A DNA stretch of 64,000 bases from Cordylochernes scorpioides (lineage: Eukaryota > Arthropoda > Arachnida > Pseudoscorpiones > Chernetidae): positions 89,281,993-89,345,992 of the forward strand of contig CP092870.1 of assembly GCA_030710605.1 (NCBI GenBank), in the 5' to 3' direction. Positions 16,914 to 53,600 of this stretch are shown one piece after another. The notes beneath the pieces were generated by a model. It was given only the letters and a program-made list of their open reading frames with translations, was not told the origin of the DNA and did not search any database. Made by a program: the position numbers and the translations under genes. Each line of letters begins with the position of its first letter. Position 1 is the stretch's first letter.

Positions 16914-19900
16914 CTAGTTGTTCAAGAAGGCGGCAATGAGGCGAGCGAGGGATGACTTGGACTGAGAGCCCTCGGGCTGGGTGCCTGATGGAGGCAAGAG
17001 GTGATCACAGCTATCATCCTTGAAGTTACTGCAGATGGTGCGGGGCATGCTGGTGGCGATCATCTCAAACATCTGAGTGGAGTACTGGACGGTCTCGGCA
17101 CCACACTTGGGCTCGATAATACCGTGGGCGCATTGGGTGAAACGCTTGTAGCCACTGCAAATAATAAACACATCAATAACACTGTCTGAGAGACTTCAAG
17201 GAAAAATTGATCAGTTTTTAATCATTGTTTGAGAGAGAGATAAAGAGCACTATACATATAAATTGACCAAATTATATTTCATATATTATTATACATTTCA
17301 ATATATATTTGTTAAGATGACCTATTATGATATATTATGAATTAAAGTATATGGTAGAGATTCTTCTTCACCTTTATTTTTATTATCCTTATTTTAAAAT
17401 ACAGAAATAGCCTTGGAACTGATTGTTGTCTATTTTGTAAAGAGATTATGATAGGAGCCTTTTGAATGTCTCCTTTTGTAATCGTTATTGTCAATATTTA
17501 TATTGTGATTAATTATATGATAGCTAATAAAATTTCATACAAGATTTTCACATCCAATAATTTTTGTTTCATAATTGTTTAGTTAATATTATGGTAAACT
17601 ACTTTTTATAAAATTTATAAGACAGATTTGAGTCAAAAGGCGATCCATTAATTAAAATTATATAAAAGGGCGTACCTGGATCTGTAAAGAAAAAAAATAT
17701 TTTTTTCTTAAAATATTTCGAGAGATTGCTCCCTCTTTATGTACTGTGCAATAAATTGATAAAGAGGGAGCAATCTCTCAAAATATTTAAAAAAAAATTG
17801 TTTTTTTTCTTTACAGATCCAAGTATGCCCTTTTATATAATCTTATAAGACAGAGTTAAGAATTTATATTAATTTTGTAGAAAGAAATATATTATAATAT
17901 GAGAATGGTAGAAAGAATCCAACGAAACAGTCTACAATTCTAATTTTTTCTCATAATAAACATCAGAATATTGTAAATTGTGGCTATATAATAATTATAT
18001 ATTTTATACAGATATGAATATGCAAATATAGACTAAATTGACTATGCCTAACCAATATTTCATTTTTCATTCAGGGTTTTAAAATAATTTAAATTGTTCT
18101 GAAGGGAAGCATTTTAAATTTAATTGAATATGAATTTTGATAGAGGATGAAAAATTTATTCTAAACTAATCTCGAACCCATCGTTCTGTAGTGCCTATGG
18201 CTATTCTTTGATGTTTATCGCATTTATTTTACATGTATATAGACTGATTTTGTTATATATTCGCCTTCCATCTATTTGTTTTTACAGAATATTTGTTCAT
18301 AATATTCTATGATGTATCTAAAAAATCATGTTTTATTGGAGGTATATAATTTTGAGTAATATTATAATAAATTCTTTGAATAATTGATTAGGTAGGAAAT
18401 ATAGGTTCTGTAATAGATGAATTATGATATAGAAAAAAGAGACATTTAAAAAAGCTATGATTGAGAAGATTTGCATGATTTCTCCATATTGAGTAGCCGA
18501 GTAAAGATTGATAGATTGATTTCGATATACTCACCAGCAGAGAATAGGTACACGGTCCTGGTTGCTAGTGGCCTTGTCAACGACTTTCTCAAGGGCAGCC
18601 TGGAAGTCCACAAGGCAGGGCCGTTCTTCAGGGTAGGCCTCTGCAAGACATTCAGCGTGCTGCAGGAATTTGGCGCTAAGCTCGGAGCCAGGGGTGCAGA
18701 ACTCATTCATCTGGGAACTGGCATCACCCATGAAGACCTCCATGAGCTCACGGACCATGGGTGTGGTACATTTCTCGGTGTAGTTGCCCATACACTGATT
18801 GGCTTCTTGAATGTATTCGCAGCTGGTTTTAAGAGCCTCTTCATTTGTAGGGATGGGAGAATCGCCCTGCATGAAAAGTACCATGGTGGCCTGGCAGAGT
18901 TCAATCTCACGCCAGTGGCAATTCTGGGCCATACCTGAAACAAAACAACATACATCCACGTTAATTACCCACAACAGACATATATCTTAAATTACACACA
19001 AGTTTTATCAAGAATTTTCTACAATTTATTAAAAAGCCTCTAACTTGCTCACATCTATACTCGAAATCAAAACGGGAATAAAACTAAACCTTTGTTATAT
19101 ATATAAAATTACAAAATAAATAAACAATTTTATGTTTGTCAAAGTATACTATCCTGATAAGATCAGAGTTATTTTATTATAAATATTTAAACTCGCATAA
19201 TTATCTACCACATTCGCAAATTATCTCACTTTTTTTTGCGTGTGGATGCATTTACATTAAAATATGAAAATATAAAGATAATAAGATATATATATTACGA
19301 TGTACTAGAGCGCCATCTGTTATCAAATTATAAAACTATTTTAGAGGCGTATTATTCTTTTTAAAATGAAACAATTTCTACTGTCCTTACTGCGATGAAA
19401 AAATTAAAGGGAGGGCCTGGCTCATCAGTGGTGAACCCTCCCAGCGGTTTCGCCAGTTTAATCTACCATACCGCTGTTATATTGCATTTTTGGAACTTCC
19501 TTTTATAGGTGACCGTTGTAAGAATCTTGGAATGGGTATTTTAGAAGAACTATGGACATAAGCTTTTAGGACAGCAGAATTAAATATAATTATAAATATA
19601 TAATATGCTTCGAGAAATCGCTCTTCCGCAAATATCAAATTGTGTCTTTTATTAGAACTATAATGTTACGATGTACTAGAGCGCCATCTGTTATCAAATT
19701 ATAAAACTATTTTAGAGGCGTATTATTCTTTTTAAAATGAAACAATTTCTACTGTCCTTACTGCGATGAAAAAATTAAAGGGAGGGCCTGGCTCATCAGT
19801 GGTGAACCCTCCCAGCGGTTTCGCCAGTTTAATCTACCATGATGAGCCAGGCCCTCCCTTTAATTTTTTCATCGCAGTAAGGACAGTAGAAATTGTTTCA

Positions 19901-21035
19901 TTTTAAAAAGAATAATACGCCTCTAAAATAGTTTTATAATTCGATAACAGATGGCGCTCTAGTACATCGTAACATTATAGTTCTAATAAAAGACACAATT
20001 TGATATTTGCGGAAGAGCGATTGCTCGAAGCATATTATATATTTATAATTATATTTAATTCTGCTGTCCTAAAAGCTTATGTCCATAGTTCTTCTAAAAT
20101 ACCCATTCCAAGATTCTTACAACGGTCACCTATAAAAGGAAGTTCCAAAAATGCAATATAACAGCGGTATGGTAGATTAAACTGGCGAAACCGCTGGGAG
20201 GGTTCACCACTGATGAGCCAGGCCCTCCCTTTAATTTTTTCATCGCAGTAAGGACAGTAGAAATTGTTTCATTTTAAAAAGAATAATACGCCTCTAAAAT
20301 AGTTTTATAATAAGATATATATATATTTTAGAAAATAGAGCAATCCATAGATAAATCTTTAATTAAAAAGGCATATATTGGATCAAAATTTTGATGATTG
20401 ATTGATGAATTAATTTCAAATGATTTTTTGATCCAATATATGCCTTTATAATTAAAGATATATACATATAGGAAAATTAGAAAGAACATAGTTTATTCCT
20501 TCAAAATAATGAGACAAAAGACTTTCATCATATATTGAGTTTAAAAGTGAACAATTTAGTGAAACTTAAAACTTGCTAAAACCTAGTTGCTACTGATAAT
20601 AATTTATGTCAATTAAAGTTTTTAGGGGTCATATAAATCGAATTGGCCAAAACTGGTAGCTGAAACTATTGTTTTTTTTTTCTTTTTAGCGCTTTCACCA
20701 AAAAAAAGTTTTTTTTTTTTTTTTATTTTAAAAATAGTATTTTTTAAATCATTTATAATATTGTATGAATATCTAAATCTATGAAAAATATCTTGAAAGT
20801 TTTAAATGCTTAAAACAAAAGAATCAGTAGAAACTATATTCCTATACTCTATTTTATGAAACAGAGAAAAATCAGAGAAAGATGAAATAAAAATTATTAA
20901 ATATTTTATATAGAATAGTATATTTTTTAGAATTAAATAGAGAACAAGATGTGTGAAATCACATTGCATATTCATCGTACGTGAGCAGTACCTACCTAGA
21001 GCTACAACGGTAGCGAGGACAAGGAGGAACTTCAT
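16914..21035 (-). CDS. Gene C: secreted 14-cysteine protein, tandem paralogue 3 of 8
   Basis: Exons 20996-21035, 18535-18934 and 16914-17154 (TAG 16914-16916); 226 residues. Signal peptide MKFLLVLATVVAL then GMAQNCHW, with cleavage expected after A16. Exon 2 has the NYT sequon and a MEVFMGDASSQMNEFC segment; exon 3 is GYKRFTQC...DDSCDHLLPPSG and ends AAFLNN. All 14 cysteines are present. Donors are G|GTAGGT and TG|GTGAGT; AATAAA is at 16866-16861 (minus). Both introns carry palindromic insertions (17.655-17.84 and 19.3-20.3 kb), yet splice sites and exons are untouched. Extracellular; function unknown. Confidence 0.87.
17655..17840. mobile_element. Foldback element in gene C intron 2
   Basis: The left arm (17655-17740) runs TATAAAAGGGCGTACCTGG through poly-A/T to GAGAGATTGCTCCCTC. 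The right arm (17755-17840) is its complement. The loop is about 20 nt. Half of this element also lies at 6519-6570. Confidence 0.75.
19417..19475 (-). ncRNA. Hammerhead-like motif, instance 1 (unusual strand order)
   Basis: On the minus strand: AGCGGU-A (H17 = A), UGGUAGA, linker, CUGGC-GAAA-CCGCU, linker, UUCACCA-CUGAUGA-GCCAG. Stem III AGCGGU/ACCGCU and stem II GCCAG/CUGGC are perfect; stem I has one internal mismatch. Core nucleotides are all present. The strand order is cleavage strand, GAAA strand, CUGAUGA strand. Confidence 0.55.
20163..20221 (+). ncRNA. Hammerhead-like motif, instance 2
   Basis: Same 59-nt layout as instance 1, in the inverted arm: stem III strands 20163-20168 and 20090+100 (20190-20195), H17 A at 20169, stem I 20170-20176 with 20203-20209, core CTGATGA 20210-20216, stem II 20182-20186 with 20217-20221. 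Confidence 0.55.
20361..20456. mobile_element. Foldback MITE, GGCATATATTGG family, copy 2
   Basis: Starts AAAAAGGCATATATTGGATC, ends with its complement (TGATCC...GCATATATTGGATC type termini), and has a short AT-rich middle. Shorter than copy 1 at 5.8-6.0 kb. It lies in gene C intron 1 just beyond the composite foldback. Confidence 0.7.
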
Positions 21036-21765: not shown

Positions 21766-22381
21766 AATATGATTGAATGGAGATAAGAAAGAAGAATATA
21801 TATATATATCAAGATACATTTTCTTAAAACTCAATACCACACACAATATGTTCGTCTTTTTCACATCCAACTTTCTACTGTTATGATGTACTTAATATTT
21901 AGGTACAATGATCTCTAATATTATTTTAAAATTCGTCTTTGTGTGGGATTTCACAATAGGTGATTGGCTTCTTTGACCAATACATTGCTCAATATATACA
22001 TATTTAATATTTTACCCAATACCCATACTTAGTAGCTGAAGAAAAACGTAATTTTAATGTGTTATAGGTAACAAGAAGAAACTGTGTCTACATATAAGGA
22101 AACCCAAAACAATGGAGGGTGTATGAAAAATACTGATTAGAGGAAAGTGACTGTCAAAACTTGCATAATGGTAATTGAATATTAGAAAAAAACAATAAAG
22201 AATAATGAACACAAGCAATTGAGTCGAATTGAGTAAACAAGAACTATTAATAAACGTTGATTGTTATTCACATAAAATTGTTTATATATCATTGTAAGGG
22301 GTACCTTTACGCCCTACTTATATTTTATTTATCACTTTATATATATATTTTTTTCAATGTATATAATAACTCAATTCAAAG

Positions 22382-22720
22382 TTTGCAGAAGAGCGATTGC
22401 TCGAAGCATATTATATATTAATAATTGTATGTAATTCTACTGTCCTCAAAGCCTATGTCCATAGTTCATCTAAAATACCCAATCCAAGAGTCTAGCATCA
22501 GTATCACTATAAAAGGAAGTCGAAAAATGCAATATAACAGCGGTATGGTAAATTAAATTGGCGAAACCACTGGGAGAGTTCACCACTGATGAGCCAGGCA
22601 CTCCCATTAATTTTTCCATTTCCGTATGGGCAGTAGAAATTGTTTAATTTTTAAAAGAATCATACGCGTCTATAATAGTTTCGAATTTTCATAACAGATG
22701 GCGCACTAATGCATAATAAT
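22382..22720. mobile_element. Diverged half-copy of the hammerhead-motif foldback family
   Basis: Single orientation, no palindrome. It carries GAGCGATTGCTCGAAGCAT, TATGTCCATAGTTC, the 59-nt hammerhead-like motif and a CAGATGGCGC end. Many substitutions relative to 20.0-20.3 kb, so it is an older insertion in the C-D spacer. Confidence 0.7.
22539..22597 (+). ncRNA. Hammerhead-like motif, instance 3 (diverged)
   Basis: H17 is A at 22545. Core GAAA (22563-22566) and CTGATGA (22586-22592) are intact. Stem II is TTGGC/GCCAG (one G-U), stem III has one mismatch, and stem I is weakened. It shows the core retained in a decaying copy. Confidence 0.45.
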
Positions 22721-23079
22721 ATATTCTGAAAATGATAGAGAAATTCCATAACCAAATACAGTTTTTAACAAAATAAAATAGTTTTTTTTTTATAAAATGT
22801 AGTATTTCTCTATTTAACTCAAAAAAATAGCAGTTATTTTTCTTAGGTTTTATAATGCTTAATAAAAAAATATTTGAAAAATTTTACTTACAAAAGAACT
22901 AACTTATATCTAAAGATATCCAGATTTGGAAATCAAAAAGAAGTAAGAAAGGTTGGTTTAAAATATAGGCGTTATTTATCTAAGGTGTATTTTGCCTTCC
23001 TTAAGCTGCCTTCCTTTGCTTATATCATTCTTATCATAATTTCGTTTGAGAACTACCTCAATTGATAATAACCAGTCAA

Positions 23080-28258: not shown

Positions 28259-28582
28259 TTATGGTTTTTCTTATATTTGTACATAATATTTTTATCAAGA
28301 TCTTTCATATTTAGGAAATGTGAAGAAATTAAAACGCAAATGTTTCTTTTTGTTATGTAATTAAAATAAGTAAGAAAGATGAATCCGTAACCAATTTAAC
28401 TTTATATATTATTTATTATTAATAGCAATTATACGAAAACAAATCTTGGTATATATGCCTAAATGAAAACAACAAAGACAATAAAACATTATATACATAC
28501 AAGTTCCTTTTCAACCTCAGTCTCATCTATAGCCATTGTTACTCTGTAATATTCCAACACTTTTCACACATAAATCAAATTT

Positions 28583-28608
28583 CTTCTGTCCTTACTGCGA
28601 TGAAAATA
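28583..28608 (+). repeat. Isolated fragment of the foldback family terminus
   Basis: CTGTCCTTACTGCGATGAAA matches the marker of the hammerhead-motif foldback family; nothing else of the element follows. Confidence 0.5.
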
Positions 28609-28798
28609 TATCTCTCATATTTAATTTTCAACTGTTTTTGTTTTCTTCAAACCAATTCTACACAAGTTAATGATTTTATAATAATTTTGTATTTATTTAT
28701 AAAATAATTTTGTGCGAGTTTTTTTTCTATTTTGTTCTTTTAAGTTTGAAAGTATCTTATTGATAAATTATATCAATAATGTTTATGAAGATGAAATA

Positions 28799-30274: not shown

Positions 30275-30407
30275 TTAGATTATCATCATTTGTATTTAGG
30301 TACACGTGTGACTTCACTGCTCTCTTTGATGTGAGAAAATAAATAAAGCATTCTGGAGGTTACTTAAAGTAGACTTATCTCATTATTCCCTTATATAAAT
30401 TTGTAGG
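30275..30407 (+). other. Leader of the Ty3/Gypsy element
   Basis: Sequence ahead of gag shared with the inverted fragment at 29.59-29.81 kb. I found no matching copy after pol, so an LTR pair could not be defined, nor a convincing tRNA primer-binding site. The 5' LTR may lie partly here (AAATAAATAAAG resembles a poly(A) signal region) or may be lost. Confidence 0.4.
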
Positions 30408-31556
30408 ATGGTTGAAACACGCTCTGGTAAGATGCAAGACCCAGCACAGGAGAGAATCATGGCTGAAGAGTCTGCCAAGCCGCAACCTGGTGCAACAATT
30501 GGTAGAGATGCTAGTTCCGACCCAGTTGTCCTGAATCCCAACATCGACATCCCCAAGTATGATGGAACGGAAGACCCTCGCCCATGGATTGAATCTCTTG
30601 AAGAAATTGGCTTCCTGTACCATTGGGCAGACTACATTATCTCTCGTTATGCCGCCATGAACATGACGGGAAGCGCTAAAACCTGGTTGAATTTACACAA
30701 AACTAGTTTCACGAGCTGGGAAAATATTAAAATCCGCCTCATTCAGGATTTTTCTTTGGACGCGAATAAAGAAGAACTTAGAATGAAGCTCAACAGAATG
30801 CAACACTGGAATGAACCAGCAATCAGGTTCGCGGAAGATATTCTAGTGTTGTGCAACAAGGTTGACCCCGCAATGGAAGAAGAAACAAAAATTGAACATG
30901 TTATTGGAGGACTGAAAAAAGAGTACTCATTCGCGCTCTACCTGAACCCTCCTAAAACGACCGATGACCTTCTTGTCGTGTGCAAGAAAATGGATTCTTT
31001 TGAAAAGAAGTATCGGGAACGTGTGGAGAAATCCAGAAACCTATATAACGGTCCACGCTATTCTAGACCCCAACAACAATCGAGGTACGTGCCGCCGACT
31101 GCCGCACGAAACTACCAGACCACTTCCAGGCCCCAAGCCCCTGTTTCCAATAATTACAAGAACGACTCCCCTCCTACTCCCAGACAGTATCGAAACAACT
31201 TTCCCCAGCCCTCTACCCCTAGACGTCCTTATAATCCTAACTTTGTGCCAAAACCAAACCTTCAGAGAAACACCTACAATAAAAGCCAAGAAGTGAGCAA
31301 AAATAGGACGGAAGATGGAAGACCAATCTGCTTTAAATGTAACAAGCCAGGGCACGTGGCCCGTTATTGTAGGGTCAAGTTTATAAGAATCTTAGAAGAG
31401 GATCCAGCAGATACCCAAGAGAAGGTCGAAGAGAAATGCCAAATGAATGAAATATCAGAGAAATCAGGACCTCGGCTTTATGCCGATGTATGTCATAACA
31501 CACAGACAAATATTCCTACCCGGAATAGATATTCCGTGTTGGAAGATTTAAACTAA
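30408..31556 (+). CDS. gag: Ty3/Gypsy retrotransposon Gag
   Basis: 382 residues; ATG at 30408. It forms the element's RNA-packaging particle in the cytoplasm. A retrotransposon-gag helical region spans roughly residues 45-215 (YDGTEDPRPWIESLE, AAMNMTGSAKTWL, LNRMQHWNEPAIRFAED). A Pro/Arg/Asn/Gln-rich basic linker (about 215-300) follows, then one CCHC zinc knuckle at 308-321, CFKCNKPGHVARYC, for RNA binding. The frame is uninterrupted and ends TAA at 31554-31556, directly after a slippery heptamer that feeds pol. Much less AT-rich than the flanks. A transposable-element gene, not a host gene. Confidence 0.93.
   Translation: MVETRSGKMQDPAQERIMAEESAKPQPGATIGRDASSDPVVLNPNIDIPKYDGTEDPRPWIESLEEIGFLYHWADYIISRYAAMNMTGSAKTWLNLHKTSFTSWENIKIRLIQDFSLDANKEELRMKLNRMQHWNEPAIRFAEDILVLCNKVDPAMEEETKIEHVIGGLKKEYSFALYLNPPKTTDDLLVVCKKMDSFEKKYRERVEKSRNLYNGPRYSRPQQQSRYVPPTAARNYQTTSRPQAPVSNNYKNDSPPTPRQYRNNFPQPSTPRRPYNPNFVPKPNLQRNTYNKSQEVSKNRTEDGRPICFKCNKPGHVARYCRVKFIRILEEDPADTQEKVEEKCQMNEISEKSGPRLYADVCHNTQTNIPTRNRYSVLEDLN
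31547..31553 (+). promoter_or_regulatory. -1 ribosomal frameshift site (T TTA AAC)
   Basis: TTTAAAC is read in the gag frame as T TTA AAC and followed at once by the gag stop TAA. Slipping back one base gives CTA AGC GTC..., which continues without a stop into the pol frame. U UUA AAC is a classic X XXY YYZ heptamer. A downstream stimulatory stem was not clear by eye. Confidence 0.8.
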
Positions 31557-34500
31557 GCGTCGCGCCTGAATCTGTCAATCAAAGCAAGTCGACCATAAAC
31601 GGAATCAAGAAGTTGGACCCTAAATACAAATTAAAAATTAACGTGGACAAGATAGGGACTTTTGAAGCTTTGGTTGATACAGGTGCTGACCTCTCAGTGG
31701 TCGACCTCAGAACGGCCCTCGATACAGGCCATGGTATAAGTAAACTCGCAAAAATTTGTGCAGGACCCGATGGAAAAAAATTGGACATGGTAGGAAGTAT
31801 ATTTTTAAATATAAAAATTGATGACGAAACATTATCACACAACTTTGTGATATTGAAAACGCATTTACGGACATTAATTCTTGGGAGAGATTTCCTTAAG
31901 AAAATGAACGCAAAAATAGATTGTAAGCAAGAAACTATCAAATACGATTTGACGAATAATCATGACGAAATCAATTTTGAAATGTTGAAAATAAAGAGTG
32001 CCAAGGACTCCATTGTACCGGAATGTTCCATGAAATTGATCAAGGCATTGGTAGAAACAGAGGATGGAGAATATATTATCGAGGAGAGCAGAAAAATGTT
32101 TCAAACAAATGGACTTCGTCTAGCAAGAAGCTTGATCAATGTTATAAATAGGGAAACACACATCTGGATAACTAATCCATATCCTCGACCGTTAAAAATA
32201 ATGAAAAACCAAACATTGGCTTTTGGAAGTAGTCCAGCGAAAATAAATGTGAGTCGAGAAAGAGAGGTAGAAGAGAACAAAGAACCTAGATTCCAAATAA
32301 ACGAAAATCTTTCACCAAAGGAACAGAAGGAGTTAAAACAAGTTTTAGAAAGGTATGGAGATCTTTTTTCGTCGAGATTAGGGAGAACCAATTTGGCAAA
32401 ACATCGGATAGACACAGAAGACGCGAAGCCAATTAAACACAAGCCTTACCGGGTAAGTGCTAAAGAACGAGATATTATAAAAGAGCAAATTGACGAGATG
32501 CTTACAGAAGGCATAATTAGGCCATCTTCTAGCCCCTGGTCTTTTCCAGTAATATTGGTCAAGAAGCGAGATGGTAAATACAGATTTTGTGTGGACTACA
32601 GAAAACTGAATAATGTGACAGTAAAAGATGTCTATCCGATCCCTAGAATAGACGAAGTTATGGATACTCTCCAAGGATCTACACACTTCTCAGCAATAGA
32701 CCTCAGGTCTGGATATTGGCAAGTTGAAGTCGAAGAAAGAGACAAAGAGAAAACAGCTTTCACTACAGCACATGGATTATATGAATTCAACGTGATGCCT
32801 TTTGGACTTTGTAACGCGCCTGCTACCTTTGAGAGAAATATGGAGAATATGCTTGGAAATCTGAGATGGCAAATTTGTTTGTGTTATCTGGATGATGTTA
32901 TCATATATAGCCCGGATTTTCCAACGCACCTCAAAAGACTTGAAGCTGTTTTTAGATGTTTTCGTGAATCTAATTTAAGGTTAAACGACAAAAAATGCCG
33001 ATTTGCTTTTGAAGAATTGGAGATTCTCGGCTATATAACGAGCAAACATGGTATAAAACCCGCGGAACATAACATCAAAGCTGTCAGAAATTTCCCTCGG
33101 CCCAAAAAGGTCAAAGAAGTACAATCCTTTTTGGGAATGTGTTCATATTATAGAAAATTTATCAAAGACTTCTCAAAAATTGCTGACCCTTTGACCAACC
33201 TTATAAAAAAAAGTGTATCATTTACCTGGACAGAAAGACAAGAGGAAGCGTTTCAAACCCTAAAAACAGCACTATTAAGTCCACCAATTTTAGGTCACTT
33301 CAATCCAAATGCACCTACTTATGTTCATACTGATGCGTCCAACATCGGCATAGGTGCAACACTTGTCCAAGACATCGGTGGTGAAGAGAAGGTGATCTCA
33401 TATTTGAGTCGTACCCTAAGTAAAGCGGAGCAAAATTATTCAACCACTGAAAAAGAATGTCTGGCCGTTGTCTGGTCAATGTCAAAATTACAACCCTACC
33501 TTTATGGAAGACACTTTAAAATAGTAACAGACCACCACGCCTTATGCTGGCTCAAAAACTTGAAGGATCCAACAGGTCGATTGGCAAGATGGGCATTAAA
33601 AATTCAAGAATATGACTTCGATATAATACATAAATCAGGAAAGAGGCATCTGGACGCCGATGGCTTATCTAGGGGACCCTTACCAGAAACTGATTGGGAT
33701 GAGGATTTTGAAAGGCTATTTTTAAATCAAATAACAGACGAAGAGGATAAGTTTATCGGAAGTGTTAAGAAAAACCTTAATGGAAGCAGGCGATCAATTG
33801 CGCAAAACTTTAAAGTAGAAGATGGATGCCTCTTTAAGAAAAACCCGAACCCTGAAGGCAGGGCGTGGTTGCTTGTGGTTCCAGAGAAGAAAAAGAGAGA
33901 AATTATGAAAGAATATCACAATCATATGTCGAATGGCCATCTGGGTGTCGCCAGAACCATGTACCGAATAAAGAGTAAATACTTTTGGCCATCCATGCTA
34001 AAGGATGTCTCAGAGTTCGTTAAGACGTGTCACCTTTGCCAAAGTAGAAAAGGCTCAAACCAATTACCTTCTGGACTACTACAGCCCATTCCCCCAGCCA
34101 ACTTTCCTTTCGAAAGAATTGGAATTGACTTTGTTGGTCCATTGCCATCTACGAAAAACAGGAAAAAATGGATAATCGTGCTGACGGACTACTACACTAG
34201 ATATGCAGAAACAAAAGCAGTCTCGGAAGCAACAGTGAAAGAAGTTTCAAAATTTCTAGTAGAGGATATTTTTCTCCGGCACGGAGCCCCACAATATCTT
34301 ATTAGTGACAGAGGCTCTCAATTTACCAGTAATTTAATGAAAGAGGTGATGAAAACGTGCAAGATTAAACATTGCTTCACAACGAGCTATCATCCCCAGA
34401 CTAATGGATTGACAGAGCGGTTAAATAGAACATTGATCAATATGCTCAGTATGTATGTGAACACTGATCAGAAGAATTGGGACGAAATACTCCCATTCAT

Positions 34501-34891
34501 CACTCACGCTTACAATACTACAATTCAGGAAACCACAGGATATTCTCCCTTTTTCCTGATGTTTGGAAGAGAACCCACGTCTCTTTTGGACGACAGGAAT
34601 ATCTCGGTGGACATTGACAAGGATGATTATGATGAATACCTAAAACATCACTTAGACAAAATAAACAGAACAAGAAAATTAGTTATTAACAACACAATAA
34701 AGACTCAAGAAAGAATGAAAAAGAACTATGACAAGAAACACATGGAAAGAAGCTACGAACCAGGAGAATTAGTAGCAGTTTGGACACCAATTAGGAAAAT
34801 AGGAAAGTGTGAGAAACTACTGAGAAAATATTTTGGCCCATATAGAATATTAAAGAAGCTGTCCAACGTAAGAATATCAATAAATAGATAA
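31553..34891 (+). CDS. pol: Ty3/Gypsy retrotransposon Pol (protease-RT-RNase H-integrase)
   Basis: Read in the -1 frame from the slippery site: 1,112 codons, giving a Gag-Pol fusion of about 1,494 residues. Numbering from the TTG at 31613: protease LVDTGADLS (D22); reverse transcriptase with YLDD at 425-428; RNase H HTDAS near 573; integrase zinc finger (H..H..CHLC); DDE core with D839, D899 and E935, the last two 35 residues apart. This order (PR-RT-RH-IN) defines Ty3/Gypsy. No frameshift or stop breaks it. The C-terminus ends abruptly, GPYRILKKLSNV then RISINR and stop, where related elements continue; GTAAGA at that point resembles a splice donor. No envelope-like gene follows. Confidence 0.92.
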   Translation, partial: LSVAPESVNQSKSTINGIKKLDPKYKLKINVDKIGTFEALVDTGADLSVVDLRTALDTGHGISKLAKICAGPDGKKLDMVGSIFLNIKIDDETLSHNFVILKTHLRTLILGRDFLKKMNAKIDCKQETIKYDLTNNHDEINFEMLKIKSAKDSIVPECSMKLIKALVETEDGEYIIEESRKMFQTNGLRLARSLINVINRETHIWITNPYPRPLKIMKNQTLAFGSSPAKINVSREREVEENKEPRFQINENLSPKEQKELKQVLERYGDLFSSRLGRTNLAKHRIDTEDAKPIKHKPYRVSAKERDIIKEQIDEMLTEGIIRPSSSPWSFPVILVKKRDGKYRFCVDYRKLNNVTVKDVYPIPRIDEVMDTLQGSTHFSAIDLRSGYWQVEVEERDKEKTAFTTAHGLYEFNVMPFGLCNAPATFERNMENMLGNLRWQICLCYLDDVIIYSPDFPTHLKRLEAVFRCFRESNLRLNDKKCRFAFEELEILGYITSKHGIKPAEHNIKAVRNFPRPKKVKEVQSFLGMCSYYRKFIKDFSKIADPLTNLIKKSVSFTWTERQEEAFQTLKTALLSPPILGHFNPNAPTYVHTDASNIGIGATLVQDIGGEEKVISYLSRTLSKAEQNYSTTEKECLAVVWSMSKLQPYLYGRHFKIVTDHHALCWLKNLKDPTGRLARWALKIQEYDFDIIHKSGKRHLDADGLSRGPLPETDWDEDFERLFLNQITDEEDKFIGSVKKNLNGSRRSIAQNFKVEDGCLFKKNPNPEGRAWLLVVPEKKKREIMKEYHNHMSNGHLGVARTMYRIKSKYFWPSMLKDVSEFVKTCHLCQSRKGSNQLPSGLLQPIPPANFPFERIGIDFVGPLPSTKNRKKWIIVLTDYYTRYAETKAVSEATVKEVSKFLVEDIFLRHGAPQYLISDRGSQFTSNLMKEVMKTCKIKHCFTTSYHPQTNGLTERLNRTLINMLSMYVNTDQKNWDEILPFITHAYNTTIQETTGYSPFFLMFGREPTSLLDDRNISVDIDKDDYDEYLKHHLDKINRTRKLVINNTIKTQERMKKNYDKKHMERSYEPGELVAVWTPIRKIGKCEKLLRKYFGPYRILKKLSNVRISINR

Positions 34892-44571: not shown

Positions 44572-47500
44572 CTAGTTGCTCAAGAAAGCGGCAAGAAGGC
44601 GAGCGAGGGCAGACTTGGACTGAGAGCCCTCGGGCTGGGTGCCTGACGGAGGCAAGAGCTGATCACAGCGGTCATCCTTGAAATTGCTGCAGATGGTGCG
44701 GGGCATGGTGGTGGCGATCATCTCAAACATCTGAGTGGAGTACTGGACGGTCTCGGCACCACACTTGGGCTCGATCACACCGTGGACGCACTGGTTGAAG
44801 CGGTTGTAGCCACTGCGCAAAGTAAACCATTTAAGAACAATGTCTAAGATGTATTTATTTATAGACTTCAAGAAACGAAATAAACATATCATTGAAGAAA
44901 AAGTCAAACGAACTATGTTCAATTATATGAACAACATTTTTACTCTTCGAGAGAGAGAATAAATTGCTACAATGAATATATTTCTATTTTATAAGAATAC
45001 TCTTGGAGAATATATTTGAATGGCTCTTTTTATTATAAATATATATTTTATTATATTGCTATACTTAGGTTTAAAATATATTAATATTTTTAAAATTTTG
45101 AAAATAAATATATTATCCATTTTGGATCTTTGAAATAATTAGCTATATGACCCACACAAAATGAATTTAATATATAAAACTTGCCACCAAGGGGTGAAAA
45201 AGAACTATTTTCTCAAAATTTACACAAAGAAGGCATGAAATATTTCTCTAATCGCGCTGATACATTTGTTGATATAAAGATTTGAAGAAAAGGTTATTTT
45301 TAAGTATAAAAATATTCTACTGTGTTTTGTATTAAGAGAAAGAGCGAGGGTATGAAGGCATCATGATGTGTTATTTTTACTTAGGATACCTTTTTATCTT
45401 CGACTCATTCTTATTGTGGTATTTATAATAACAAACATGCCATTCACAAAAACCATCATTATGTTTTCTGTATAGTTCCTACTTCAGTAATTGAACTGAG
45501 GGTGTAAGAGATATAAATAAATTTGAAGGACTCACCAGCAGAGAGTGGGCACACGGTCCTCGTTGCTGGTGTCCTTGTTAACGACTTTCTCAATGACGGC
45601 CTGGAAGTCCACAAGGCAGGGCCTTTCGTCAGGGTAGGCCTCGGCAAGGCACTCAGCGTGCTGTAGGAAATTGGCGCTCAGCTCGGAGCCAGGGGTACAG
45701 AACTCATTCAACTGGGAGCTGGCGTCACCCATGAAGACATCCATGAGCTCACGAACCATGGGCGTAGTACACTTCTCGGTGTAGTTGCCCATACACTGGG
45801 TGGCCTCCTTAATGTTTTCACAGCTGGCTTTCAAATCATCGGCACTTGTTGGGATGGGAGAATCGCCCTGCATGAAAAGCACCATGGTGGCCTGGCAGAG
45901 TTCAATCTCACGCCAGTGGCAATCCTGGGCCACACCTGAACACAAAAAATGTAATATCTTAGTTAACATATAAGTATCATAACTCAATCAACATAACACA
46001 ACACTAGATCAATCTTCTTTCAGAATATAGTTTCTATCATTTCACTACTCACCAAGCAAGTTAGAATTGTGATTCGCTAAATATAGCCTTTACTTACTAC
46101 AATATAACCTTTACTTTCTTAAATTGTTCTGATATCATAATTCTCCCGCCTTATAGTTAAAGGTATATGCAAATATAAACCTAACTCCATGAATCAATGA
46201 AATTAATGAAACTCCAAAATTGTACTATAAATCTTGTCCATAGAAGATACCGATTTTTATTTCAAGTTTACTCTTTCATATATATTTTATGCCATTTTAA
46301 TAAATTATTATTATCACGCCTTTGAAAAATTTGGATATGGAAATTTATGTATGAAATATCCAAAATATACTTTCTAAATACTAATTAAGCCTCATACCAA
46401 ACTTTGGTATAAAATCACTTTTCTATTATAACAGGTCAGTTTTATAAACATTTAGTTAGGATCTCAATCAATACTTCTCTTGTATTATGTTTTACGCAGG
46501 TACTATAGGCATTGGTAAACATATCCATTGTTGAGTTATTCAACAAAATTGTTGATCATTACTCATTATTTGTATTCTTTGTATTTTCATCATTTTAATA
46601 TCTATAAAATATATTTACCTTTAAATTTTTACTCCAATATGAATTATAATTGACCGGGGTTATAATATCAAGAATAAAATGTAAAAATACAATCTCATAT
46701 TATCGTAAATAGATAAAATATTTTAAATTGTAGTTATATATTTGAATTTAGCGCGATCAAGAAAGCGAAAGCTTTATATAAAAATCAATCAATAAAAATA
46801 TAACTTTTATGCATATTCCCAAAATTTGAATTATTATTTCTCACTATGAGCATAACCTATTCTTCATTACTTATATAAACAAGAAATTTAAAGAATATTC
46901 ATCTTTCAAACATCTTGATAGATACCCAAAATATGTTAAGGTCCAAGAAAGACATGAAATCTTTTAATTAGTGTGAAAATGATATTTCTTATATATTTAT
47001 GAAAACTAGACTTATGTCGTCTAGACTAGGTTTCAATTTAACGTTTTAGAGGGATTAGATGTGTATGTCCTTTAAATTAATTATCTTTTCCGCTGGTATT
47101 TTGCGCCTGAGGATTACCAAAGCTGCTCAGGTAGCTTGACTAACTGGTTGGTTTGGCTGTGGCATACTGCCCTCTATTCTCTCTTATCCTTTCTTAACAT
47201 TTCTACTCGCTCAATTTAAGTTTAAATTTTGAATTGTTATCAAAATTTGGGTCAATAATAGATACACAACAAAAATATACTTATAATGTTGAATATATAT
47301 GAAAATAAAAATTATATTGAGATTTATTTTAAATTCGCAGGAAATATTATGTAACCACGGCTCTTTCTTACAAAGCAATTTCAAATACATTCAATAATTT
47401 TTTTATTGAGAATGAAATTTTATATTATAAAAAATATTTTGTCCTCTTTTAAAAGCATATCTATTATAAAAAGAAACATAAACATTTTAATTTTTACTTC

Positions 47501-50658: not shown

Positions 50659-53600
50659 TTAGTTGCCCAAAGCGGCTCCAATAAGGCGAGCGAGGGCGGA
50701 CTTGGACTGAGCGCCTTCGGGATGGGTGCCTGGAGCAGGTAGGAGCTGATCGCAGCCCTCATTCTTGAAACTCTTGCAGATGGTGCGGGGCATGCTGGTG
50801 GCGATCATCTCAAACATCTGAGTGGAGTACTGGACGGTCTCGGCACCACACTTGGGCTCGATCACATCATGCACGCACTGGTTGAAGCGGTTGTAGCCAC
50901 TGCATACAAAAAATACATCAAGATAAAATCTGAGATATGTTAATGCACATCAAGAAAAAAGATTATGATCAATATATATTTTATATATAAACCATAAATA
51001 AATAAATGTTTACTATTAATGACATTGTAACTCTCTCTTTTCAATACTATTCAAACATATTTCATCTCCTTAAAGAGAATTAAGTTAAGTGTAACCTTTT
51101 TGCATCGTAAGTATAGATATTCTATTTCACTTTAAATTCACTTTATTCATTTTTTGTTATTCCACAGAAAATGTTTTTGAAAATATATTACGCATCCGAA
51201 GTGAATTGATTATTCAAATAACCGAGCCAATAGTATTTGATAAATATTTTTTATACTGTTAAATAGAGAATTTTAAAATATTTTCATAATATTTCTGCAG
51301 TGTTTCAATATGAATTGGTGAAATGTGCGCCTCTTTCCTATTACAGTTGTTGAACAATTAAATATGTATCTCACAAGAACGTTAGTAATATATTCTATGT
51401 ATATATATATATAAGTAGTTTGACTTGTACTGTATGATATATTTAACATATAATTTGATAGACTCACCAGCAGAGAGTGGGTACACGGTCCTCATTGCTG
51501 GTAGCCTTGTCGACGATTTTCTCAAAGACAGCCTGCATGTCCTCCATACAGGGACGTTGCTCAGGGTAGACATCAGCAAGACATTCGGAGTGCTGTAGGT
51601 AGTTGGCACGCAGAGTGGAGCCAGGGGTGCAGAACTCATTCAGCTGGGAGCTGGCGTCACCCATGAAGACATCCATGAGTTCACGGACCATGGGCGTGGT
51701 ACACTTCTCGGTGTAGTTGCCCATACACTGGTTGGCCTCCTGGATGTTCTCACAAATGGTCTTCAAGGCTTCTTCGCTTGTAGGGATGGGAGAATCGCCC
51801 TGCAGAGCGAGTACCATGGTGGCTTGGCAGAGTTCAATCTCACGCCAGTGGCAATTCTGGGCCATACCTGGATACACACAAAACTCTATATTATTTAATA
51901 TATCATAATATCATTCTAAATAAAATAAAAAAATTGTCTACTATCCCCTCCAACACTTCCAAATCAACAGATAATAGTTGTCATTTATATCAGAATCTAA
52001 AAATATTATGCCGAAGACATTCACGCCTTCACTTTATTATTAACAAATATTCTGATGATCAACACTTAGCCAACACATTCAAATATTGATAAAACTAAAC
52101 TATGCTAAACCCCCTAAAAAAGGTTTCCTATCATTTCCATAGTATGATACTTTCTTATAAAATAAAAGGACTTGAAAGCGCGAATGTTTCTTTTATACAT
52201 AAAACGAACTTCTACTGTCCTTACTGCGATGAAAAAATATATTGGGAGGGCTTGGCTCATCAGTGGTGAACCCTCCCAGCGGTTTCGCCAATTTAATCCA
52301 CCAGACCGCTTCTCAGAGCTCTAATACTGTATTGGATCATTCTGCTTTTATATGCTACACTGAAGGATGGAATCTTAGAAATGGGTTTCAAGTAAACTAT
52401 GGACATAAGCTTATAGGACAGTAGAATTACATTCAAATATTTGCTTCGAGCAATGCTCTTCAGCAAACTTTAAAGACGAGGCCAGTTAGGAATAAATTAA
52501 CACAAAGCAATAACGCGCCATCTATACATATAAAATAAAAGGACTTGAAAGCGCGAATGTTTCTTTTATACATAAAACGAACTTCTACTGTCCTTACTGC
52601 GATGAAAAAATATATTCAAGTCCTTTTATTTTATATGTATAGATGGCGCGTTATTGCTTTGTGTTAATTTATTCCTAACTGGCCTTGTCTTTAAAGTTTG
52701 CTGAAGAGCATTGCTCGAAGCAAATATTTGAATGTAATTCTACTGTCCTATAAGCTTATGTCCATAGTTTACTTGAAACCCATTTCTAAGATTCCATCCT
52801 TCAGTGTAGCATATAAAAGCAGAATGATCCAATACAGTATTAGAGCTCTGAGAAGCGGTCTGGTGGATTAAATTGGCGAAACTGCTGGGAGGGTTCACCA
52901 CTGATGAGCCAAGCCCTCCCAATATATTTTTTCATCGCAGTAAGGACAGTAGAAGTTCGTTTTATGTATAAAAGAAACATTCGCGCTTTCAAGTCCTTTT
53001 ATTTTATATGTATAGATGGCGCGTTATTGCTTTATGATACTTTCTTACCCAAATGTACTTCTTTATATAATTCCTGAAACATATTTCTAAACTTTCATCA
53101 TCCCAAATATTTTATTTAAAAAGAAACAAATACCTCATAAATTTCCAAAGAAAAATACACACATTAATAAATTTTATTAAATACAAATTCATCTTCTTAG
53201 CAATATTCAACCAATCTCTTTTTGATATATACTTTGAAAACATATAATTATTAAGATATCAGAAATGATATATCCTGATGTTATTTTCTAGATGGATGAA
53301 CATAGATACGGATATGAAATTGAAGTAAGAAGCATTTTAATTGAATGAAAAACTTATAATTTATAAATATTTTAAGGAGACCTTCATAATAGAATTTTTT
53401 TCAATTGAAATCAAATATGCTCTCAATCTCTACTACCTTTATATAGGCTATACCGCACTGTGTCAAGATTATTGTTCTATTTATATTATATTGTTCTATT
53501 TATAAAATGAAAAATCATAACTAATCCTTATATTGATAAATTTATATTTTTTAATATATATATATATATATGTCATAATTTGTATAGTTAATGCCAAGAG

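Follow-up and report, generated by a model that had tools for sequence, protein, structure and literature searches.

A 64,000-nt stretch of contig CP092870.1 of the pseudoscorpion Cordylochernes scorpioides (Arachnida), referred to here as the window, contains a foldback element in which the conserved strands of a hammerhead ribozyme follow one another in a non-cyclic order. This raises the questions of whether these strands form a ribozyme, to which type it belongs, and how the element that carries it has spread.

The type-SGC motif in the window

The initial annotation had placed a hammerhead core of non-cyclic strand order on a foldback element, and its letters, coordinates, three helices and S-G-C block order at 52854-52912 (plus strand) were borne out by direct reading and by a descriptor search; the foldback arms are 394 nt long and 99% complementary. 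The blocks read S = AGCGGT-C-TGGTGGA, G = TTGGC-GAAA-CTGCT and C = TTCACCA-CTGATGA-GCCAA, and the invariant core is present throughout, namely CUGAnGA, GAAA, A15.1-U16.1, G10.1-C11.1 and an H17 other than G, all of which the descriptor requires (CTGA-N-GA, C-GAAA and U16.1-H17, with stems I, II and III of at least 4, 3 and 4 bp). Four descriptor matches were obtained in the window (H17 positions in Table 1), in the two arms of the foldback at 52 kb and the two arms of a diverged foldback at 19-20 kb, and 60 dinucleotide shuffles of the window gave 0 matches on both strands. The motif occurs once per unit in two repeat families of C. scorpioides, F1 (373 nt) and F2 (371 nt). Beside the core, F1 has stems of at least 7 (I), 5 (II) and 6 bp (III), while F2 has 4 bp followed by a mismatch in stem I, 5 bp in stem II and 7 bp in stem III; stem III of the F1 plus arm is AGCGGT/ACTGCT, with one G-U pair, and that of the other arm AGCGGT/ACCGCT.

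The motif is built from two hairpins, III and X, that abut each other; two pairings between their loops would give stems I and II around the core, with a 5-nt linker between these two stems. What had been annotated as a 7-nt linker, GGGAGGG, can instead pair with CCCTCCC to form a fourth helix (Table 1). This helix connects stems I and II, as happens in type-SGC hammerheads, and a fold within the monomer is therefore plausible. Judged by the structure and the published type, the cut is predicted 3' of H17, hence after 52860 in the plus arm.

The strand order had been thought to belong to no described natural class, and the same succession of cleavage, GAAA and CUGAUGA strands was considered here as new and rejected, as it is that of the type-SGC hammerheads, a non-circular permutation named by Eckert, Friedrich, Weinberg and Weinberg, who predicted 583 such sequences (NAR 2023; PMC10085705). 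In that work, cleavage at the expected base was reported for five representatives, was co-transcriptional and was probed with disrupting and compensating mutants; in SGC-3, all four helices including the bridging helix were needed for cleavage and compensating changes rescued it (PMC10085705). As that report describes them, the type-SGC ribozymes are metatranscriptome finds located near hairpin ribozymes, with none from the genome of a known organism (PMC10085705). A search of the literature outside subscription journals and preprints returned no type-SGC ribozyme in an animal genome and no pseudoscorpion hammerhead. Going by sequence, the setting of a type-SGC motif in an animal genome thus looks new, while the order itself is known.

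Table 1. Window coordinates of the F1 and F2 elements and their ribozyme parts.
Feature	Position	Strand	Remarks
Left target-site duplication of F1 foldback, TATGATACTTTCTTA	52143..52157	.	15-nt direct repeat; last bases possibly the element's
F1 minus arm, ~1.2 units	52158..52616	-	outer end at site A (unit 148)
Type-SGC motif, F1 minus arm	52244..52310	-	H17 52304; descriptor; model match 52232-52318
F1 plus arm, ~1.2 units	52615..53032	+	outer end in zone B (unit 186 as mapped, chance flank matches included)
Type-SGC hammerhead, F1 plus arm	52854..52920	+	direct reading, descriptor; model match 52846-52932
Stem III, F1 plus arm	52854-52859 with 52881-52886	+
H17, F1 plus arm	52860	+	predicted cut 3' of this base
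Stem I, F1 plus arm	52861-52867 with 52894-52900	+
Stem II, F1 plus arm	52873-52877 with 52908-52912	+
GAAA, F1 plus arm	52878-52881	+
Bridging helix, F1 plus arm	52887-52893 with 52914-52920	+	GGGAGGG/CCCTCCC
CTGATGA, F1 plus arm	52901-52907	+
Right target-site duplication of F1 foldback, TATGATACTTTCTTA	53033..53047	.	direct repeat
Left direct repeat, F2 foldback	19278..19295	.	18 nt, AT-rich; part possibly the element's
F2 minus arm	19296..19839	-	outer end at site B (unit 181)
Type-SGC motif of F2, minus arm	19409..19475	-	H17 19469; descriptor, model
F2 plus arm	19836..20306	+	outer end at site A (unit 148)
Type-SGC motif of F2, plus arm	20163..20229	+	H17 20169; descriptor, model
Right direct repeat, F2 foldback	20307..20324	.	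18 nt
Single diverged F2-like copy, ~one unit	22369..22722	+
Decayed type-SGC motif in this copy	22539-22605	+	only 3 bp left in stem III
Fragment with the conserved box found downstream of the ribozyme	28562..28611	-	blastn 86%; no ribozyme seen in the fragment

The window also holds exons of a tandem gene family with retroelements in between (e.g., 51464-51910, 45532-45987 and 38436-37933, all on the minus strand), the matches of which are named DUF19 or T20D4.11-like, and two long ORFs of 385 and 1120 aa at 30399-34891 (plus strand) that by eye resemble LTR-retrotransposon gag and pol.

Energy, conservation and copy number

Hairpins III and X both appear in the minimum-energy fold of the 68-nt F1 motif (-28.9 kcal/mol), in which the loops additionally pair within themselves, and the two hairpins alone account for -19.6 kcal/mol. 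The duplex energies are -7.4 (stem I) and -5.2 (stem II) kcal/mol for F1 and -3.4 and -6.8 kcal/mol for F2, and on energy the knotted form appears plausible, short of proof. The bridging helix is part of the minimum-energy fold, and 95% of its cells are paired in an alignment of 20 sequences. Over this alignment, 94.4% of cells are paired and the covariation score is 0.063, both values exceeding all 500 shuffles, with the relatedness of the copies inflating scores of this kind; when the partners were slid by +1, the score rose to 0.071 and one pair type was added, but the paired cells fell to 49%. Two-sided changes were seen in one of 25 pairs (in stem II), which is not above the shuffles (mean 1.3). 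Covariation being thin, it is the agreement with the published type, together with conservation, that carries the case.

Between F1 and F2, 63 of the 67 ribozyme columns are identical (94%), compared with 198/322 (61%) in the rest of the unit, and part of this conservation falls in a box just downstream of the ribozyme. The four differences concern H17 (C/A), the fifth stem I pair (mismatched in F2) and one stem II pair, both bases of which differ, U-A becoming C-G.

Both families are repetitive, with at least 41 matches to a 191-nt F1 query (40 scored of 234 first-look candidates) and at least 45 to the F2 query (40 scored of 770). A ribozyme model gave 173 matches in 248,528 bases from 40 sources, 39 of which are loci fetched for or beside such copies, and its match list includes many decayed ribozymes. 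A cruder look found 19 clusters beyond each locus's own seed cluster in 260,524 bases, some of them being two arms of one insertion. The window itself has three insertions with a ribozyme, besides one piece of the conserved box; as a crude guess and not a count, this density of three in 64 kb would translate into the order of 10^5 copies in 2.6 Gb. At gathering score, Rfam reported no hammerhead family in the window or in seven loci, and relaxing the threshold to E values of up to 5 on 52100-53100 gave four matches, none of them a hammerhead; therefore, such elements may be unannotated elsewhere.

Anatomy of the insertions

Insertions were mapped with unit numbering from the cleavage site, for F1 in the window, L009-L028 and L179, and for F2 in the window and 19 of 30 F2 loci, overlapping loci being left out. 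The 36 rows with two arms represent 35 distinct insertions, since L029 is the window's own F2 element, and all of them run from a minus arm into a plus arm, with none in the reverse arrangement. Their outer ends fall into two zones approximately 32 nt apart in the unit, A (unit 141-152) and B (unit 173-189), both blurred by chance flank matches. Both ends could be placed in these zones in 32 rows, and 30 of the 31 distinct insertions concerned have one A and one B end (16 AB, 14 BA, one AA in L017 and no BB); with an independent, even choice, the probability of seeing no more than one equal pair would be 1.5e-8. The remaining four rows have an end elsewhere (L014, L015) or are cut by the locus edge (L023, L040). 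Direct repeats of at least 10 nt, mostly 12-15 bp, flank 30 of 34 uncut rows (29/33 distinct), the exceptions being L014, L015, L017 and L024 (6-8 nt).

The inner ends are scattered: with L179 left out, both lie within 6 nt of each other in unit numbering in 4/34 insertions, compared with an expectation of 1.2. At the centre, the arms overlap by at least 1 nt in 16 rows, abut in three and are separated in 17, and joining by microhomology is at best a possibility. Sixteen further rows are single arms, some of which are cross-matches to the other family or locus-edge cuts; the uncut ones in L019, L021 and L027 are flanked by direct repeats of 11-13 nt. Arms can be long, with 15.4 units in one arm of L009, and the tandem array at L011:3704-7608, which lacks a second arm, shows a higher-order pattern of three units.

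Private variants are shared between the two arms of an insertion. Among 13 F1 insertions, 44 of 91 non-consensus states are common to both arms, against 2.9% for arms taken from different insertions, six loci that hold further copies (L016, L018, L019, L024, L027 and L179) having been set aside beforehand. In L010, the same eight variants recur in 12 long pieces (five in one arm and seven in the other), and the four of them that the two partial central pieces cover are found there as well; the outermost minus piece is slightly different. Rolling reverse transcription of one circle fits this pattern; for the three-unit pattern of L011, either a circle of three units or amplification of the DNA at a later time would be required.

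Other strand orders were looked for as well. With a six-order descriptor applied to two tandem units of F1 and F2 on both strands, only SGC was found within 150 nt, a span limit that does not reach a dimer. Elsewhere in the same genome, cores in the type I order (CGS) gave 12 descriptor rows at 10 distinct places, L042 covering the same place as L032; they lie in L020 (1202 -, 1281 + and 1635 +), L030, L032, L024, L026 and L038, with a weak one in L022. None of these cores was reported when six of the loci (all but L022 and L042) were searched with Rfam at gathering score. L020 is an inverted, tandem repeat of approximately 354 bp, in which 12 nt (AGATGGCGCTCT) match F2 and 10 nt (TAGATGGCGC) match F1, perhaps by chance (E 0.22); in F1 and F2, the shared motif sits between sites A and B. 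In viral contigs, the exact ribozyme pattern and the exact pattern of the conserved box gave 0 and 0 matches. A looser pattern hit at least 120 stretches, and among 115 matches scored in 80 of these loci (L059-L138), 97 are best described as GSC (type II), one as GCS, 17 as none and 0 as SGC; type II hammerheads are thus frequent in the scored viral contigs, some of which have up to five pattern matches.

Mobilisation and relation to known elements

An ORF with reverse transcriptase and GIY-YIG parts is absent from the 371-373-nt units and present in separate copies in the genome. Beside an F2 copy in L039, a 163-aa piece matches the GIY-YIG family PF01541 (E 5.7e-5), and relatives of the ORF that contains it mostly carry PF00078, PF28514 and PF26215, the first of which we take to be the reverse transcriptase; Pfam gave no reverse-transcriptase match on the Penelope-like ORF itself, and 0 solved structures matched it. 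Among 150 scored of 33,532 first-look candidates for the GIY-YIG piece, 31 pairs of neighbours lie within 7 kb of each other, and 29 of these are minus-plus, one is plus-minus and one plus-plus. Six further pairs, chosen for short spacing, were fetched and form a set of seven with L179. All seven foldbacks have one end at reference 332-339 (L184 with its right end at 332) and the other at 364-371, approximately 30 nt apart. These ends take in a few bases of flank, and as the long arm of L179 served as the reference, the long end of L179 is fixed by construction. Apart from this pattern of ends, the comparison made between the units and the Penelope-like element revealed no common sequence. The F2 unit was also considered as a pLTR of the Penelope-like element in L039/L179 and rejected, as self-alignment showed instead that an F2 monomer has inserted into a Penelope-like copy and that the junctions share approximately 16 nt. 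In the description given in PMC3846280, one of the inverted pLTRs of a Penelope insert optionally bears a 31-bp tail. The Penelope protein of the anole has two adjacent start sites for reverse transcription, and both target strands are cut and extended; in vitro, the start site does not differ between the strands (PMC11167929). The genomic pattern adds to this that the two start sites are used one per strand.

Taken together, we consider it probable that F1 and F2 are retrozyme-like elements of type SGC and owe their mobility to a Penelope-like enzyme, which uses a single RNA as the template for priming from both target strands. Tandem units would be transcribed, and in each unit hairpin III and the second hairpin would form, their loops pairing to give stems I and II around the core, whereupon the RNA would be cut 3' of H17. 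RNAs of one or a few units may then be closed into circles, a step suggested by arms of up to 15 units that continue across the cleavage site without loss of phase. A GIY-YIG Penelope-like enzyme, proposed because a similar pattern of ends is seen in Penelope-like copies of the same genome, would cut both target strands 12-15 nt apart and prime one cDNA at site A and the other at site B, approximately 32 nt further 3', on the same RNA. Joining of two cDNAs of independent lengths would then yield the head-to-head foldback.

The ribozyme could instead be a relic that persists by descent in elements moved along the Penelope route without self-cleavage. This is what the anole element may suggest, as ribozyme mutants left its insertion in vitro unaffected and its ribozyme needed the protein to cleave (PMC11167929), and the many decayed copies in Cordylochernes point the same way; moreover, the conservation partly covers the downstream box, so sequence recognition by a protein could contribute to it. 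However, no other part of the two families is as well kept as the ribozyme, 39% of the remaining positions being different, which makes a relic unlikely. Equally doubtful is that a single cDNA folds back and is copied, instead of two cDNAs arising from the two target strands. Self-copying would give arms that share variants, self-priming has been proposed for rotifer Penelope elements in the account given in PMC3846280, and the few coinciding inner ends exceed expectation; on the other hand, folding back predicts equal outer ends and not the pairing of A with B, most inner ends do not coincide, and the target duplications fit two staggered cuts, so that snap-back is less likely as the main route.

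The ribozyme would probably act within one unit. The nested fold that the initial annotation proposed for a tandem dimer, in which the GAAA strand of one unit and the cleavage and CUGAUGA strands of the next form a GSC (type II) hammerhead, is possible, as the tandem units provide the strands, and small Penelope-associated and newt hammerheads are described as working as dimers (PMC7229834). It is not needed, though, and would require a loop of approximately 345 nt, compared with linkers of 0-5 nt in the in-unit fold, and leave the well-paired bridging helix without a role. The in-unit fold is favoured because of this extra helix, the counterpart of which is reported as required in SGC-3 (PMC10085705), and because the strands abut directly; we regard action solely as a dimer as improbable. 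That the motif resembles a hammerhead by chance has nothing but the shortness of the core in its favour and is hardly credible given the empty shuffles and the positions kept between the families.

On a broader reading, to which we lean only slightly, type-SGC hammerheads extend beyond unknown RNA replicons to at least two retrozyme-like families in an animal, beside type I-like foldback repeats, and the insertions arise by Penelope-type two-strand rolling reverse transcription of one circle with starts at A and B. If so, one-circle, two-strand copying would account for the inverted and tailed layout that makes Penelope-like elements puzzling, and the paired A/B ends and shared variants turn the question of their tailed head-to-head insertions into a model testable in vitro. 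The non-circular permutation would gain a named host, a home in DNA and a plausible job, none of which came with its discovery in 2023, and the comparison suggests that hammerhead topology is exchangeable within one niche of mobile elements.

With the type-SGC ribozymes of PMC10085705 (HRIMA-1 motif and variants), the Cordylochernes motif, matched on description and not by alignment, shares the order, the core, stems I-III, the helix bridging I and II and the abutting hairpins, although the published motif allows 0-44 nt between hairpins that abut here and has a stem I-II linker of typically 3 nt instead of 5 nt; the published motifs come from metatranscriptomes, whereas the present one resides in nuclear repeats of an animal. 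As described by Cervera and de la Pena (2020; PMC7229834), metazoan non-LTR retrozymes are likewise small, AT-rich tandem units of a few hundred bp with one hammerhead per unit, and both the tandem units of 150-450 bp and the target duplications of more than 4 bp by which retrozymes are recognised are found here (371-373-nt units, direct repeats of at least 10 nt). In contrast, those retrozymes carry type I hammerheads and circular RNA was shown for them, whereas the Cordylochernes units, examined as DNA, have type-SGC motifs and form head-to-head foldbacks, an arrangement absent from the description in PMC7229834 used here for comparison. Endonuclease-bearing Penelope-like elements share the head-to-head inverted copies, the approximately 31-bp tail on one inverted end and the target duplications (PMC3846280; PMC11167929), although the duplications are mostly 12-15 bp in the Cordylochernes units and, as given in PMC3846280, 8-10 bp in rotifer Penelope. 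The paired A/B ends of the units also parallel the two reverse-transcription start sites and the cutting and extension of both target strands in PMC11167929; Penelope-like elements, however, encode the protein, while the Cordylochernes units do not and carry a type-SGC ribozyme.
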